Shown here piece by piece: positions 1-5,072 of a stretch of 64,000 bases of DNA (its first letter is position 1; each line of letters begins with the position of its first letter). The notes beneath the pieces are model-generated. The model saw nothing but the letters and a program-made list of their open reading frames with translations, had not been told where the DNA came from and made no database searches. Source of the stretch: Janthinobacterium sp. LM6 (GTDB lineage Bacteria > Pseudomonadota > Gammaproteobacteria > Burkholderiales > Burkholderiaceae_D); NCBI RefSeq assembly GCF_002002885.1, contig NZ_CP019510.1:5022001-5086000 (forward strand), read 5' to 3'. The translations under genes and the position numbers were made by a program.

Positions 1-1175
1 TAGGTCCGCTCCGCCTGGTCGCGCGAAAACGCCAGGTCCAGGCGCGGCAAGTCGCCGCTGGCATGCCAGTGCTCAATTTCCTCGCGATAATGGAAATCAT
101 GGGCCGCGTTGCGTTCGCCAAAGATCAGCCAATTGCGCCGCTGCCCTGCCAGCACGCGGCTTTTCAGGTGGCCGCGCAAGCCGGCGATGCCGCTGCCGTT
201 GCCGATCAAAATCAATGGCCGCTGGGCATTGTCTTCCAGGCGAAAGCGTTTGTGCTGGCGCAAGCGCAGCTGCACCACGTCGCCGACGGCGGCCTGCGCC
301 GTGAGCCAGCCGGAGGCCAGGCCCAGGCTGCCATCGGGATGCGCATGCTGGCGCACCAGCAAGTGCACGCCGCCGTCGTGCGGAATCGAGGCGATCGAAT
401 ATTCGCGCGGTTGCGCAGGATCAAGCGGCGCGGCCACCTGCACCAGGTCGCCCGACTGCCAGTCAGGCAGGCTGCCCGCCACGGGCGCCAGTTCCACGTG
501 ATAGATGGGGCCGCCGGCGCTGCCGGGATTGAGCAACTGCCGACGCGTCAGGCGCCAGTCGCCAAAGGCGGGCGCGCTCCAGTCGGGCGCGTCGCTGGTG
601 CCGGCCAGGTGGCTCAGGTGCTGGAACCATTGCTCGATGGTAGCGCTGGCGCTGCGGTCGACTTCGATGCGCTCGAACAGGCGCGAGGCGCCCTGCTCCG
701 CCAGCCAGGCATCGAGCGCGCGGCCGAAGCCGCAGAACTGGCCATAGCTGCGGTCGCCCAGGGCCAGCACGGCGTAGTGCAATTGCGGCAGCGCCAGCTC
801 GCCCGTCATCAGGCGCCCCATGAAGGCGGCCGCATTGTCGGGCGCATCGCCTTCGCCATACGTGCTGACCAAAAACAAGGCCCGTTCCGCTTGTTGCAGA
901 TCCATGGCCGTGAGGTCGGTCAGCGCGCACAGGCGCACGGGAATGCCGGCCAGCTGCAGGCTTTGCGCCGTTTGCGTGGCCAGTTCCTCGGCATTGCCCG
1001 TCTGGCTCGCATACGCCACCAGCCAGGCGGGACTGTTGGCCAGCGCCGCCTTCGCGGCGTCGGACGCGCGGCGCTTGGCGCGCGCGCGCAGCCAGGGCGC
1101 CAGGCACACGCCCGCGTAACTGAGGGACAGGGCGGCCAGCAAGGCCAGCCGCGTCGTATCGTGCGTAAAAATCAT
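1..1175 (-). CDS. Membrane-anchored flavodoxin/FNR-type reductase (sulfite reductase flavoprotein-like), 3' end outside window
   Basis: Translation from the ATG at 1175 gives at least 391 residues, open at the window edge. One hydrophobic segment (about residues 8-26) is followed by a flavodoxin-like domain with the FMN-loop motifs ASQTGNAEE and STYGEGDAPDN and then LGDRSYGQFCGFG. An FNR-like part follows, with the FAD motif REYSIAS and a nucleotide-binding LIGNGSGIAG. This is the diflavin layout of CysJ and cytochrome P450 reductase. It starts 12 bases after the ApbE stop, so it is the last visible gene of the Fur-controlled operon. Likely role (inference): pass NADPH electrons to the PepSY membrane protein encoded upstream. 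The reductase is probable; the partner is not proven. Confidence 0.85.
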   Translation of the reverse strand, partial: MIFTHDTTRLALLAALSLSYAGVCLAPWLRARAKRRASDAAKAALANSPAWLVAYASQTGNAEELATQTAQSLQLAGIPVRLCALTDLTAMDLQQAERALFLVSTYGEGDAPDNAAAFMGRLMTGELALPQLHYAVLALGDRSYGQFCGFGRALDAWLAEQGASRLFERIEVDRSASATIEQWFQHLSHLAGTSDAPDWSAPAFGDWRLTRRQLLNPGSAGGPIYHVELAPVAGSLPDWQSGDLVQVAAPLDPAQPREYSIASIPHDGGVHLLVRQHAHPDGSLGLASGWLTAQAAVGDVVQLRLRQHKRFRLEDNAQRPLILIGNGSGIAGLRGHLKSRVLAGQRRNWLIFGERNAAHDFHYREEIEHWHASGDLPRLDLAFSRDQAERT

Positions 1176-1187
1176 GGAATCAATCGT

Positions 1188-2228
1188 TCATTCGTCGAGC
1201 ATGGCCAGCATGTGGCTGCTCAGCGTTTCATGGTAGCCATCGCCGTCGCGCTGCAGGAAGCGCGCGGCCAGGCCCTGCTCTTCGGCCAGCGCCATGCCGG
1301 CTTCCGGGCCCAGCACCGTCAAGGCCGTCGACCAGGCATCGGCCGCCATGCATTCGGCGTGCACGACGGTGACGGAGGCGAGTTGATTGGCGATCGGCAT
1401 GCCGCTGCGCGGATCGATGGTGTGTGAGAAACGCACCGTGCCATCGTCGAAGAAACGCCGGTAGTCGCCCGACGTCGCCACGGACAAGCCGTGCAGCGCC
1501 AGCAGCATTTCCGGCGGATGCTGCGCATTCTCGGCACTATCGGCGGCACCATCGACCTGTTCCAGCATCACCCACCATGGCTGGCCGTCGGGCTTGCTGC
1601 CGGCGCCGCGCAGCTCGCCGCCCACTTCGACCAGGTAATGATGGATGCCCTGGCTGTCCAGGTAGCGCGCCAGGCGGTCCACGCCATAGCCCTTGGCCAC
1701 GGCGGACAAATCCAGCTGCAAGCCGCCCGGCTGGCGCGCGCGGCGGGCCGGCAAATCCAGTTCCAGGCGGCGGCGCTGGCGCTGCGCCAGCAGCAGCGCC
1801 ACGGTATCGTCTTTCGGCGGCAGGAAGCCGGCCTCATCGTAGCGATTGCGGGGGCCGAAGCCCCACAGGTTGACGAGGGCACCGGCGCATGGGTCATACG
1901 CGCCGCCGGACGCCTGCGACACGTGCATGGCAAAGCCCAGCACCTCGCAAAAGGCGGCGGGCAGGCTGTGCCAGCTGCCGGGCTCGGCCCGGTTGAAGCG
2001 GCCCAGGTCCGAGTCCTCGTCCCAGTGGCTCATTTGCGCTACAACAAGATCCAGCTGCTGCTGCAAGCCCTGCTGCAGGTCGGCGCTGCCCGCGCGTCCC
2101 GGCATGGCGGGCTCCAGCAAGCGCACCGACCAGCTGGTGCCCATCGACAGGCCGTGCAAGTCCCGGATCGCGGCGCCGGGCGGCGCGACCTGATCGGAAA
2201 TATGCTGCGGCAGCAGGACCCGGCGCAT
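1188..2228 (-). CDS. apbE: FAD:protein FMN transferase (ApbE)
   Basis: 346 residues, the usual ApbE length. ApbE links FMN from FAD covalently to a Thr/Ser of exported proteins. Visible family motifs are VEVGGELRGAG, SHTIDPRSGMPI and the metal-site region DAWSTALTVLG near the C terminus. No clear signal peptide or lipobox is seen at the chosen start (MRRVLLPQ), so either the start is misplaced or the enzyme is exported otherwise. It lies between a DUF4198 gene and the flavodoxin reductase, all on the minus strand with short gaps. The probable substrate is the DUF2271 protein two genes upstream, which carries a matching acceptor motif. Confidence 0.93.
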   Translation of the reverse strand: MRRVLLPQHISDQVAPPGAAIRDLHGLSMGTSWSVRLLEPAMPGRAGSADLQQGLQQQLDLVVAQMSHWDEDSDLGRFNRAEPGSWHSLPAAFCEVLGFAMHVSQASGGAYDPCAGALVNLWGFGPRNRYDEAGFLPPKDDTVALLLAQRQRRRLELDLPARRARQPGGLQLDLSAVAKGYGVDRLARYLDSQGIHHYLVEVGGELRGAGSKPDGQPWWVMLEQVDGAADSAENAQHPPEMLLALHGLSVATSGDYRRFFDDGTVRFSHTIDPRSGMPIANQLASVTVVHAECMAADAWSTALTVLGPEAGMALAEEQGLAARFLQRDGDGYHETLSSHMLAMLDE

Positions 2229-2258
2229 CGGCGCTCTCGCTCGCGAAGATGCCGCCGC

Positions 2259-3083
2259 TTACTGCGGCAGCACTTCCACGGAAGCCGCGTAGGTGGCGCG
2301 GCGCTCCGGCATCACGGGCGGCTGGCCGGCCACGGCTGGCGCGGCCGCAGGCCAGGTGCTGCTCAGGTAATACATGCCGGCCGCCGGCACGGTGAACGTG
2401 ATCTCGCCCTTGGCATCCGTGCTCTGGCGGATTTCACCGAGCACGCCGCGATAGCGCACGCCGCCTGGCACCAGGCTGAACGCCTGGTTCGCCGCAGGCT
2501 TGCCGTCGATCAAGAAACGCCAGGTGGCTTTCTCGCCCGCGCGCAAGTCGTTCGGGTGCGTTACCGGCACGAATTCCAGGCCCACGCCCGTCGGCTTGAA
2601 CACTTCCGTGCTGGTTTCGCCATTGCTGAAGAAAGTTTCCAGGCGCGCTGCCGTGCGCGTGATTTTCACGTCTTTCGCGTCGGCCGGCACGTCTTTCTTG
2701 AAGGTTTCCTCGTTCCCGCGGAAACGCTTCTGCTCGCCGTTCACGGTGTAGCTGCCCATCACGTTTTGCGACACGATGGCCGCTTTATACGTGCCCGGCT
2801 TTTCCATTTTCACGTCGAAGACGCTGCGCAAACGGCCCGTGAGGGTGTTCGCCGGCGCGACCTTGGCGCCGTCCGGGCCGATGACTTGCAGCGCGTCCAG
2901 GCGCAGCGGCTGGTGGTCGATCTCGAACAAGGCGTCGGAGACGGCGGCATCCACCGTCACCCAGGCGTCCTTGCTTTCCACCATCGTGCTCGATGGCACC
3001 ATCCAGCCGCGGTGGGCGTGGGCGTTCATGGCCAGGCCGGCCAGGGCCAGGGCGATCAGGGGTTTGTTGAATTGCTTGAACAT
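2259..3083 (-). CDS. DUF4198 family periplasmic protein
   Basis: 274 residues from the ATG at 3083, chosen because an AAGGCG ribosome site precedes it and a clean signal peptide follows (about 22 residues, ending AMNAHA). The mature protein would begin HRGWMVPSST; a histidine near a mature N terminus is compatible with metal binding, but this is inference. The rest looks like beta-sandwich repeats (FDVKMEKPGTYKAAI, GEITFTVPAAGMYYL), which matches the DUF4198 family, often found beside metal-uptake genes. It starts 10 bases after the DUF2271 stop. Exact function unknown; probably a periplasmic accessory of the electron-transfer or iron-acquisition operon. Confidence 0.82.
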   Translation of the reverse strand: MFKQFNKPLIALALAGLAMNAHAHRGWMVPSSTMVESKDAWVTVDAAVSDALFEIDHQPLRLDALQVIGPDGAKVAPANTLTGRLRSVFDVKMEKPGTYKAAIVSQNVMGSYTVNGEQKRFRGNEETFKKDVPADAKDVKITRTAARLETFFSNGETSTEVFKPTGVGLEFVPVTHPNDLRAGEKATWRFLIDGKPAANQAFSLVPGGVRYRGVLGEIRQSTDAKGEITFTVPAAGMYYLSSTWPAAAPAVAGQPPVMPERRATYAASVEVLPQ

Positions 3084-3093
3084 GGGGTGCGCC

Positions 3094-3609
3094 TTATGGT
3101 TTGAGTTGAACGACGACATTACCGAGTTCTTCCTTGCCTTTGGCTGGCACGGACTGGGCCGATTTCAGCGGCCACTGGAACGGCACGCGCACCAGTTCGC
3201 GTCCGCCCGCTTCGCGCGCCGCTTCCACCACCACCTGGTATTCGCCCGCCGGCAACTTGTCGAGCAAGGCCTTGGCGCCTGGGAAGGTCAAGGTATGTTC
3301 GCCCGGCGCACGCGTGGCACCGCTGACGCCGTCCACGGGCATGGCCAGGTCGCGACCGCTCTTGCGCCACCATTGACGCATGTCCTTGAGCCACTTCTCG
3401 CCGACTTTGTCTTTCTTTTTCACGTCATACAGCACGGCCAGGTTGCCAACCACCTTCTGATCCGCCGTTTCCAGCCACGCCGCCACGTAGGGACGGTGGT
3501 ATTCCGCCACGTTCAATTGCGGGAGTTCAAGCTTGAGGGACAGGTCGGCCGCCATCGCCGACGTACCGATCAGGGGAAGGCCAAGCGCCAGGGTGTAGCG
3601 TAATTTCAT
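3094..3609 (-). CDS. DUF2271 periplasmic protein with ApbE flavinylation motif
   Basis: 171 residues with a signal peptide (MKLRYTLALGLPLIGTSAMA, residues 1-20). Residues 93-99 read DGVSGAT, matching the D-x-x-(S/T)-G-A-(S/T) acceptor motif recognised by ApbE; Thr99 would carry the FMN. The gene lies two positions upstream of apbE in the same operon, which supports a substrate-enzyme pair. Other visible features are a WLKDMRQWWRKSGRD helix before the motif and a beta-rich C-terminal half. Probable role (inference): a periplasmic flavoprotein receiving electrons from the PepSY protein and passing them to ferric iron or another acceptor. The family assignment is firm; flavinylation is predicted from sequence only. 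Confidence 0.87.
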   Translation of the reverse strand: MKLRYTLALGLPLIGTSAMAADLSLKLELPQLNVAEYHRPYVAAWLETADQKVVGNLAVLYDVKKKDKVGEKWLKDMRQWWRKSGRDLAMPVDGVSGATRAPGEHTLTFPGAKALLDKLPAGEYQVVVEAAREAGGRELVRVPFQWPLKSAQSVPAKGKEELGNVVVQLKP

Positions 3610-3643
3610 GGTGTGCCTGTAAAAAAAGTAAGAATAAAAACGA

Positions 3644-4297
3644 TCAGTGAATAAACAGCAAGGCGATCGCGCAGGGTATCAAGATACCGAGGCCAACCAT
3701 TGGCCAGGTAAATGGCCGGTTGGCCGCGTGGAACTTCAAAATCAATAAGCCCGTCAGGCAAAATACGATGCAGGCGCCGGCAAAGATGTCGATGAACCAG
3801 CTCCACGCCACGCCCGTGTTGCGGCCCTTGTGGACATCGTTGAGCCAGGACACCCAGCCCCGGTCCGTCAATTCGTATTCGGCGGCCCCGTCTTCCAGGC
3901 CGATGCGCACCCAGGCGTCGCCGCCCGCCCTGGGCAGCGGCAGGTAGACTTCGTCGATCGACCATTCGGCGGGACGGCCGCCCGCATTGAGCGACCACTG
4001 CTGCTTGAGCCAGGCTTCGGCGTCGGCCGGCATGGGCGCATTGGCGCCATCGTGCTTGGCGGCATACGCGGCCAGTTGCGTGACGAGGGGTGCCGGCAAC
4101 GCCGCCTTCTGGCGCGTGATCGCCGGCTTGGCTTCGATCTGGCCGGCGTGGTTCAGCGTGATGCCGGTAATGGCGAACAGAAACATGCCCAGCAGGCAAA
4201 GCGCTGAGCTGATCCAGTGCCATTGATGCAAGTTCTTCAGCCAGACGGCGCGGCTGGCGTTGTTCTTGGCCTTGTCTGCTGCGCCCGCATTACCCAT
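3644..4297 (-). CDS. PepSY-associated transmembrane protein
   Basis: 217 residues with about three membrane segments (roughly 29-48, 164-187, 197-216) and a periplasmic PepSY-like region between the first two. Membrane-edge histidines are present in LHQWHW, TLNHAG, NDVHKG and LKFHAA, the kind of positions that can bind heme in transmembrane electron carriers. First full-length gene after the Fur box, so it should be expressed in low iron. Its stop is 34 bases from the DUF2271 start. In this setting it most likely carries electrons across the inner membrane between the flavodoxin reductase and the flavinylated DUF2271 protein. Heme ligation is inferred. Confidence 0.85.
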   Translation of the reverse strand: MGNAGAADKAKNNASRAVWLKNLHQWHWISSALCLLGMFLFAITGITLNHAGQIEAKPAITRQKAALPAPLVTQLAAYAAKHDGANAPMPADAEAWLKQQWSLNAGGRPAEWSIDEVYLPLPRAGGDAWVRIGLEDGAAEYELTDRGWVSWLNDVHKGRNTGVAWSWFIDIFAGACIVFCLTGLLILKFHAANRPFTWPMVGLGILIPCAIALLFIH

Positions 4298-4352
4298 CGA
4301 GCGCTCCCGGCAAGGAGCGGGCCAGGTGGCGCGACAAGTCAGTGTGCTTCAT
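4290..4352 (-). CDS. Possible 20-residue leader peptide overlapping the PepSY gene start
   Basis: A short reading frame starts at the ATG at 4352, after an AAGGA-like site, and encodes MKHTDLSRHLARSLPGALDG. Its TAA (4292-4290) lies just inside the PepSY gene, whose ATG is at 4297, so the two frames overlap by 8 bases and translation could be coupled. It lies downstream of the predicted promoter and Fur box, inside the transcript leader. No homologue is recognised. It may be a true leader peptide, the remnant of a small membrane protein gene, or chance. Confidence 0.35.
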   Translation of the reverse strand: MKHTDLSRHLARSLPGALDG

Positions 4353-4392
4353 TCCCATCCTTCAATCAAAGTTCATGCCTCATTTTCAAACA

Positions 4393-4422
4393 AATGATAA
4401 TGATTATCATTTATTAAGTCAA
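4393..4422 (-). promoter_or_regulatory. Fur box overlapping a sigma70-type promoter of the PepSY/ApbE operon
   Basis: Positions 4393-4411 read AATGATAATGATTATCATT, a near-perfect 19-bp Fur box; the palindrome extends one base on each side (4392-4412). On the minus strand a -35 TTGACT (4417-4422) is followed after exactly 17 bases by a -10 TATCAT (4394-4399). The Fur box covers the spacer and the -10, so Fur-Fe(II) would block the polymerase. This predicts repression of the downstream minus-strand operon in iron-replete cells. Confidence 0.9.
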
Positions 4423-4574: not shown

Positions 4575-5072
4575 ATGCAAGCATATTCCAGCGAACAACT
4601 GGCCAGCATCGCGGCCAGGATCAAGGATGTCAAATTCGGCATGCTGACCACCAGCGATGACATGCGCACCCTCACCAGCCGGCCACTGACGCAGCAGCAG
4701 GTCGATAGCGAAGGGCAAATCTGGTTCTTTGTCTCGGACGAGGCCGCCTACACGCGCGACTTGTTGAACAATCCGCAAGTCAACGTCAGCTTTGTCGACA
4801 CGGGCGACAGCCTGTATGTGTCCGTCTGCGGTCACGCGCAATTGCTGAAGGACCGCGCCAAGGCGGAGGAATTGTGGAACCCGCTGCTAAAAGCCTGGTT
4901 CCCGGGCGGACTCGACGATCCGAAGCTGTCGCTGATCAAGGTAACGATCCAGTCAGCCGAATACTGGGATAGCAGCGCCAGCAAGATGATGCAATTCTAT
5001 GAAATGGCCAAGGCCGCCATCACGGGCGAACCGCCAAAGGATCTGGGCGAACACGGACGGGTTGACCTGTAG
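4575..5072 (+). CDS. Pyridoxamine 5'-phosphate oxidase family protein (general stress protein 26-like)
   Basis: 165 residues starting at the ATG at 4575, preceded by AAGGGAGC; an upstream in-frame start at 4539 lacks a ribosome site. The protein shows the split-barrel flavin-binding fold of the family: an N-terminal helix with LASIAARIKDVKFGMLTT, then RTLTSRPLTQQQVDSEGQIWFFVSD and VNVSFVDTGDSLYVSVCGHA. Similar proteins are induced by general stress in many bacteria and bind FMN or FAD; their substrates are mostly unknown. It stands alone, divergent from the Fur-controlled operon. A weak stem-loop follows at 5137-5170. Confidence 0.85.
   Translation: MQAYSSEQLASIAARIKDVKFGMLTTSDDMRTLTSRPLTQQQVDSEGQIWFFVSDEAAYTRDLLNNPQVNVSFVDTGDSLYVSVCGHAQLLKDRAKAEELWNPLLKAWFPGGLDDPKLSLIKVTIQSAEYWDSSASKMMQFYEMAKAAITGEPPKDLGEHGRVDL

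Follow-up and report, generated by a model that had tools for sequence, protein, structure and literature searches.

A Fur-box operon of PepSY, DUF2271 and DUF4198 genes with a leaderless ApbE in Janthinobacterium sp. LM6

We analysed a stretch of 64,000 nucleotides from the genome of Janthinobacterium sp. LM6 (NCBI RefSeq assembly GCF_002002885.1, contig NZ_CP019510.1, positions 5,022,001 to 5,086,000 of the forward strand), hereafter called the window. The window begins with a five-gene operon preceded by a Fur box, which is the Janthinobacterium copy of an already described iron-controlled gene set. We focused on this operon and on its flavin transferase ApbE, which exhibits no signal peptide. 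The features of the operon, in window coordinates, are the following.

4422 to 4394, minus strand: sigma-70-like promoter TTGACT-N17-TATCAT (10/12 matches), overlapped by the Fur box
4414-4396, minus strand: Fur box ATAAATGATAATCATTATC (16/19 matches to the consensus)
4290..4352, minus strand: 20-codon leader open reading frame (ORF) MKHTDLSRHLARSLPGALDG, read from the sequence, whose stop codon overlaps the PepSY start
4297-3644, minus strand: PepSY_TM_like_2 membrane protein (PF16357, E 3.8e-78; PF03929, E 1.9e-10)
3609-3094, minus strand: DUF2271 periplasmic protein (PF10029, E 1.2e-50), with a Sec-type signal by reading
3083-2259, minus strand: DUF4198 periplasmic protein of a metal-binding family (PF10670, E 9.8e-52)
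2228-1188, minus strand: ApbE flavin transferase without signal peptide (PF02424, E 1.1e-78; PDB ApbE 5mgy, E 1.2e-57)
1..1175, minus strand, continuing past the window edge: flavodoxin/FNR-type reductase with a hydrophobic N-terminal segment (PF00258, E 1.7e-29)

Gene order, Fur box and relation to known operons

The five genes were identified by a Pfam profile search and are closely spaced on the minus strand, with intergenic gaps of 34, 10, 30 and 12 nt for the starts chosen; for DUF4198, the second ATG was chosen, the listed ORF beginning at 3119. An original prediction, made by a model from the letters and the ORFs of this DNA, had proposed these five gene families on one strand with short gaps, and both the Pfam matches and gaps in the range of 10-34 nt agree with it. 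The span of 1-4422 that it gave for the whole operon is too short, as the reductase is cut by the window edge and comprises 454 aa in the genome (L084:9811-11175). The PF00175 match of the cut reductase falls just under the cut-off, and its CysJ-type matches are all below the cut-off.

The genome consists of a single 6.29 Mb contig, with one DUF2271 match and two ApbE matches. The 80 named loci used for comparison rank highest among 425 confirmed matches and are close relatives. Among the matches listed, the nearest named relatives are Janthinobacterium, with a DUF2271 that is 98% identical. A homology search for the same gene order, which the original prediction had suggested, showed that 75 of the 80 named loci share the complete set of five genes, in this order and on a single strand. 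L054 and L057 possess all five genes with their best matches in another order, and in L022, L065 and L078 the contig ends ahead of the last gene or genes.

The Fur box was scored against GATAATGATAATCATTATC, which we take to be the Fur consensus. It is the sole match in the window with at most three mismatches, and none of 100 shuffles gave any. The Fur box lies over the TTGACT-N17-TATCAT promoter, as the original prediction had read. Two promoter-like sites were found in the region, versus a shuffle mean of 0.2. Upstream of PepSY, the best Fur-like site reaches at least 14/19 in 66 of the 80 named loci, where the shuffled mean is 10.5.

The leader ORF has an equivalent, including the overlap, in 12 of 18 Janthinobacterium loci compared, and other loci start PepSY from an MKQ-type start. 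Judging from this arrangement, translational coupling of the leader ORF with PepSY is possible, and the ORF may have arisen as a leader peptide from an ancestral start that was displaced.

By annotation, the five genes and their order match those of Caulobacter crescentus CC3059-3063 (CCNA_03155-03159); that operon differs in organism and, compared by annotation alone, exhibits no difference in gene content. Da Silva Neto et al. described CC3059-3063 as repressed and bound by Fur, based on an array, a lacZ fusion and gel shift (PMC3751524). Its Fur site lies over the promoter, as in the window, and Fur binding and derepression were demonstrated in Caulobacter. Repression by Fur, which the original prediction had put forward, thus holds for the matching Caulobacter operon, according to the lacZ fusions and gel shift. 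In Tn-seq (transposon-insertion sequencing), insertions at the same locus lower fitness in ethylenediaminetetraacetic acid (EDTA; PMC12004947). In Alteromonas, DUF2271 and DUF4198 genes rise under iron limitation (PMC7190382).

The operon also resembles the PepSY-like flavinylation systems of Méheust et al. (eLife 2021; PMC8238504), in which a PF16357/PF03929 protein is found with ApbE, DUF2271 and DUF4198. Of their 3220 PepSY-like clusters, 2833 have DUF2271 and 1500 have DUF4198. Their definition asks for a PF03929 or PF16357 protein no more than five genes away from ApbE or DUF2271, and for at least one target gene with a signal peptide or lipidation site; in the window, these genes are adjacent, and DUF2271 carries a signal peptide, by reading and by a home-made rule. 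The operon itself is one more genome for the published iron-reduction system.

ApbE without a signal peptide and the site of DUF2271 flavinylation

DUF2271 carries DGVSGAT at residues 93-99, as the original prediction had read, and this stretch fits the [S/T]GA[S/T] acceptor motif. Thr99, which is kept in 58 of 59 aligned DUF2271 rows, is the predicted acceptor of flavin mononucleotide (FMN). Where SGAT varies, the acceptor Thr or Ser stays in the rows shown, for example in DGVTGPT and DAVTSAS. The attachment of FMN to such a threonine by ApbE, another element of that prediction, has been shown for the DUF2271 of A. ursilacus, which is flavinylated by its own ApbE at the equivalent motif Thr; the same study proposed iron reduction for the PepSY-like systems (PMC8238504). 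With the lax setting of the hydropathy rule described below, a signal is seen on DUF2271 in 79 of the 80 named loci and in 32 of 34 diverse cases.

Our own DUF2271 profile missed the DUF2271 of L148-L155, L157 and L318-L323, which the Pfam profile does match. A second cluster type (L148-L152, L155, L157, L292 and L318-L323) combines a distant DUF2271 with a long FNR-like protein and, downstream, a leaderless ApbE. Several of these distant DUF2271 exhibit a Ser acceptor, in GAS.

The ApbE of the window exhibits the conserved residues of PF02424, and these columns are near-invariant. Its N-terminus, MRRVLLPQHIS..., contains no hydrophobic segment before the domain, and no other ATG, GTG or TTG is present upstream in frame to the DUF4198 stop. 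It has neither the lipoprotein signal nor the twin-arginine translocation (Tat) signal by which an extracytosolic ApbE is recognised. The original prediction had correctly placed an ApbE in the operon; it had overlooked that the signal peptide is missing, a point that matters for the site of Thr99 modification. A second ApbE is present elsewhere in the genome. What is surprising in this sequence is that the flavin-attaching enzyme apparently remains in the cell, whereas its target is exported.

N-termini were compared in the named loci and in two further samples, all of them from Pseudomonadota. The phylum sample comprises 43 loci from 42 genomes plus the present genome (G000), with only matches above the family cut-off. 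The second sample comprises 37 loci from 36 new genomes, drawn by class and order, with the partial above-cut-off match G333 left out. Reading by eye revealed no recognisable signal on the cluster ApbE in any of 79 named loci (L065 stops short of the gene), on any of the 26 stand-alone cluster ApbEs of the phylum sample, or on 24 of the 25 in the second sample. The least clear readings are those of L145, which has a proline-bearing hydrophobic stretch with no preceding basic residues, and of L121, which has a long upstream frame.

A home-made hydropathy test with Kyte-Doolittle values was also applied, in a lax and a strict setting. The lax rule flags 16/79 stand-alone cluster ApbEs of the named loci, 3/27 of the diverse loci (4 with CTG starts) and 3/25 of the second sample; the corresponding counts for the strict rule are 0/79, 1/27 and 0/25. 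The strict rule misses most DUF2271 signals (8/80 pass) as well as the lipoprotein L306. The final leaderless counts were therefore taken from the N-termini read by eye. For comparison, 26 of 31 ApbEs encoded elsewhere in the phylum-sample genomes and G000 pass the lax rule. Among 40 control ApbEs from genomes without DUF2271, hand-picked from the high-scoring part of the match list, 36 pass the lax rule and 34 the strict one; among the 4 that do not pass the lax rule, two (L203 and L234) look like lipoproteins by eye.

A quick tree was computed from 111 ApbE domains, comprising 46 cluster rows (the window, 18 of the 79 named and 27 diverse) together with 65 other rows; others that scored below 100 bits with our own ApbE profile were excluded. 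The 45 leaderless rows fall into a group of 38 (support of 92 in the Shimodaira-Hasegawa-like approximate likelihood ratio test, SH-aLRT) and a group of 7 (support of 100). As the tree groups the leaderless rows, the trait is old and kept rather than an annotation slip, and the topology fits one or two origins of the leaderless ApbE.

A secreted DUF4198-ApbE fusion, produced by readthrough or frameshift, was considered and rejected: the DUF4198 stop lies in the ApbE frame here, but the upstream ApbE frames differ among loci. In L135, L136, L137, L141 and L144, which lie outside the class of the window, probably in Alphaproteobacteria, a CTG overlaps the DUF4198 stop (C-TGA) in the ApbE frame and is a possible start. 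L136 and L137 have no ATG, GTG or TTG between the stop of the preceding gene and the domain, and their ApbE may start at this CTG.

Since the ApbE of the operon has no signal peptide, DUF2271 is most likely flavinylated in the cytosol before Sec export. An ApbE tag as short as seven residues suffices (PMC12052999); a folded substrate is therefore not needed, and modification of the unfolded precursor is plausible. Export of a folded, flavinylated DUF2271 by Tat was also considered and rejected, as the strict twin-arginine motif is present in 0 of 113 chosen signals and RR within the first 12 residues in 21 of 113. More generally, we tentatively propose, at a level of confidence just short of even, that the ApbE lineage of PepSY/DUF2271 operons is cytosolic in at least two classes of Pseudomonadota and places FMN onto the Sec-exported DUF2271 before it crosses the membrane.

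ApbE is present in all 42 phylum-sample genomes with DUF2271 above the cut-off (G000 aside) and in all 36 genomes of the second sample; in the whole phylum sample, it is found in 226 of 299 genomes. In 20 of the 42 genomes, the searches gave no ApbE besides that of the cluster and no FMN_bind protein (19 with a stand-alone leaderless ApbE and 1 with a fused one). Of the 29 second-sample genomes with a cluster ApbE, 12 have no other ApbE: 10 leaderless, 1 lipoprotein (G838) and 1 fused, with FMN_bind not included in the search.

It is possible, if rather doubtful, that DUF2271 instead receives its FMN in the periplasm, once exported, from the operon ApbE arriving there through an unrecognised route or from a second, Tat-signalled ApbE, the operon ApbE then having another cytosolic substrate. 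Several results speak for this and against a cytosolic step. In the Janthinobacterium genome, the second ApbE, with its Tat-like N-terminus, is located beside an FMN_bind-domain protein and could serve DUF2271 too. L306 is a stand-alone lipoprotein ApbE by eye, and five ApbE-DUF2271 fusions (L147 and L314-L317) carry signals. The DUF2271 signals had been expected to be weaker beside a leaderless ApbE, but their hydrophobicity is no different there (19 versus 14 clusters, p = 1.0).

Furthermore, all sampled genomes whose cluster has no stand-alone ApbE encode a signal-bearing, lipoprotein-like ApbE elsewhere (15/15 in the first sample and 7/7 in the second, 22 in all), with L165 and L185 being lipoproteins by eye only, L325 having an untypical lipobox and L330 being broken in the assembly. 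Periplasmic flavinylation of DUF2271 is therefore likely in these 22 genomes. In one of the seven of the second sample, G633, a further DUF2271 is fused to an ApbE-like domain that has diverged. Together, L306, the fusions and the users of a lipoprotein ApbE suggest that the periplasm is also a workable site. In the 19 genomes mentioned above, however, no ApbE other than the leaderless one was found and, of the two substrate families searched, DUF2271 alone is represented, which speaks against periplasmic flavinylation.

The acceptor motifs of the fusions L147 and L314-L317 are KPT, RPT or GPT; in a sixth fusion, L290 (in G633), the ApbE-like part has diverged (47.8 bits). A proline before the acceptor Thr was found in 10 of 19 first-sample clusters with a leaderless ApbE versus 0 of 14 without (Fisher p 0.0014). 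This difference was not repeated in the second sample, where 0 of the 18 clusters that combine a stand-alone ApbE with a readable motif have the proline, and it is not used as evidence; the proline is present in 4 of 4 second-sample fusions. For DUF4198 signals, the same split into clusters with and without a leaderless ApbE gave p = 0.0025, partly due to mis-chosen starts in L117, L119 and L123. DUF2271 signals are weaker than the DUF4198 signals of their own cluster in 100 of 110 pairs, which fits slow export of DUF2271, in an unspecific manner.

A cytosolic site of flavinylation, if true, would depart from the usual view that exported flavoproteins are flavinylated outside. A periplasmic flavoprotein would be built without exporting flavin adenine dinucleotide (FAD), which bears on how FAD reaches ApbE, a point called still obscure in a 2025 review (PMC12052999). 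The cytosolic ApbE of Klebsiella pneumoniae also has no signal peptide (PMC12052999); its substrate is a cytosolic fumarate reductase, whereas the presumed substrate in the window is exported. In the account of the PepSY-like systems, as far as consulted, an ApbE without signal peptide is not commented on, and a signal-peptide-truncated cognate ApbE is mentioned for A. ursilacus (PMC8238504). No comment on the leaderless ApbE of PepSY/DUF2271 clusters was found in the published literature searched, a search that fell short of whole texts and supplementary tables.

Electron transfer and the metal

We consider it likely that the operon is Fur-repressed and exports electrons across the inner membrane to the periplasm for assimilatory iron reduction, with ApbE flavinylating DUF2271 in the cytosol. 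From the gene content and order, the Fur box and the conserved Thr and His residues, all of which are observed, we infer each electron-transfer step, the acceptor and the metal as follows. The operon ApbE would attach FMN to DUF2271 in the cytosol, followed by Sec export. NAD(P)H would reduce the membrane-anchored cytosolic flavodoxin/FNR protein, which would pass electrons to hemes of the PepSY protein, held by the invariant His27 and His156 on opposite membrane sides. From there, the electrons would reach the FMN bound covalently to Thr99 of periplasmic DUF2271, which would reduce ferric iron or ferric chelates for uptake. DUF4198 would bind metal via its mature N-terminal histidine. In the chain drawn by the original prediction, periplasmic iron reduction agrees with published inference and with the fitness data in EDTA (PMC8238504, PMC12004947); its PepSY-heme route and its final acceptor are presumed steps, and it had correctly listed DUF4198 in the operon, assigning no role to it.

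The PepSY_TM_like_2 protein is a probable b-heme transmembrane electron carrier, to judge from its sequence. His27 and His156 are present in 56 of 56 aligned rows, His217 in 51, His50 in 50 and His190 in 46. The predicted model (predicted local distance difference test, pLDDT, 93) exhibits three long helices fitting membrane spans. Going by the helix order of this model, His27 would face the cytosol, and His156 and His217 the periplasm. In the FoxB-type PepSY protein (7ABW, named in PMC11334425), histidines are likewise placed on both membrane sides, and the likeness consists of a partial PF03929 match.

The predicted mature N-terminus of DUF4198 is His24; it is conserved in 54 of 58 rows, with gaps at this column in the remaining 4, and His176 is conserved in 55 of 58 rows. 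Foldseek searches with the DUF4198 model (pLDDT 94) matched Zcp (9mhj, E 6.3e-13), whose structures hold Zn, Cu or Co, and the nickel protein of Ideonella (9gcb, E 9.2e-8). The window DUF4198 therefore shares its fold with IsDUF4198 (9GCB) and Zcp (9MHI-9MHO). The Ideonella protein, described in 2025, binds Ni with a Kd of 18 nM and has an N-terminal histidine (PMC12537917), a residue common to the window DUF4198. Its second Ni ligand, His18, falls by position on a Trp in the window DUF4198, and His142 of Zcp aligns to a non-His column in the profile. Because these further ligands of the relatives are not kept, the metal of the window DUF4198 cannot be read off; given the Fur control, we infer that it is iron.

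Several results count against the chain as drawn. The DUF4198 relatives in the sources bind Ni, Zn, Cu or Co, not iron. A Fur-like site of at least 14/19 is present in only 8 of 31 phylum-sample clusters, a count made with no shuffle control. Foldseek with the PepSY model against the PDB gave no match at E <= 0.001, and a PepSY profile search against solved structures gave none at E <= 1. Since no solved structure matched, heme binding by PepSY is assigned by family only, and the likeness to FoxB is that of the partial Pfam match.

It is quite unlikely that the electrons go to a non-metal acceptor in the periplasm, the chain being induced only when iron is short, for example in place of heme proteins. 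Flavin systems have indeed been proposed as alternatives to cytochromes in iron-poor settings (PMC8238504). However, the linked DUF4198 belongs to a metal-binding family, and PepSY-like clusters have been linked to VIT1 and TonB receptors (PMC8238504). That the operon handles nickel, zinc or copper instead of iron is very unlikely: the metals held by the Ideonella and Zcp proteins would favour it, but the window has a Fur box, Fur binding and an iron response were found in Caulobacter (PMC3751524), the fitness loss in EDTA was tied to iron by its authors (PMC12004947), and the second Ni ligand of the Ideonella protein falls, by position, on a Trp.

Neighbouring genes and a second flavinylation cluster

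A glutathione peroxidase gene (L084:9187-9738, minus strand; PF00255, E 1.3e-36) is located just outside the window, about 70 nt after the reductase and on the shared strand. Such a gene follows the reductase in 11 of the 80 named loci, all of them Janthinobacterium; in 73 of the 80, the sequence extends 700 nt or more beyond the reductase. In Caulobacter, an annotated glutathione peroxidase adjoins another Fur-regulated DUF4198 gene (PMC3751524). On the other side, a divergent gene at window positions 4575-5072 (plus strand) adjoins the operon and encodes a pyridoxamine-phosphate-oxidase-like protein (PF16242, E 9.1e-50).

The second, Tat-signalled ApbE of the genome belongs to another flavinylation cluster, at L085:2304-10815 (G000:C1, about 1.317-1.326 Mb). 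This cluster also comprises a PF01011 protein of the pyrroloquinoline quinone (PQQ)-dehydrogenase type, a 398-aa protein without Pfam match and an FMN_bind/Fer4_5 membrane protein carrying DGVSKATAS, and it adjoins a sigma-54-type activator.

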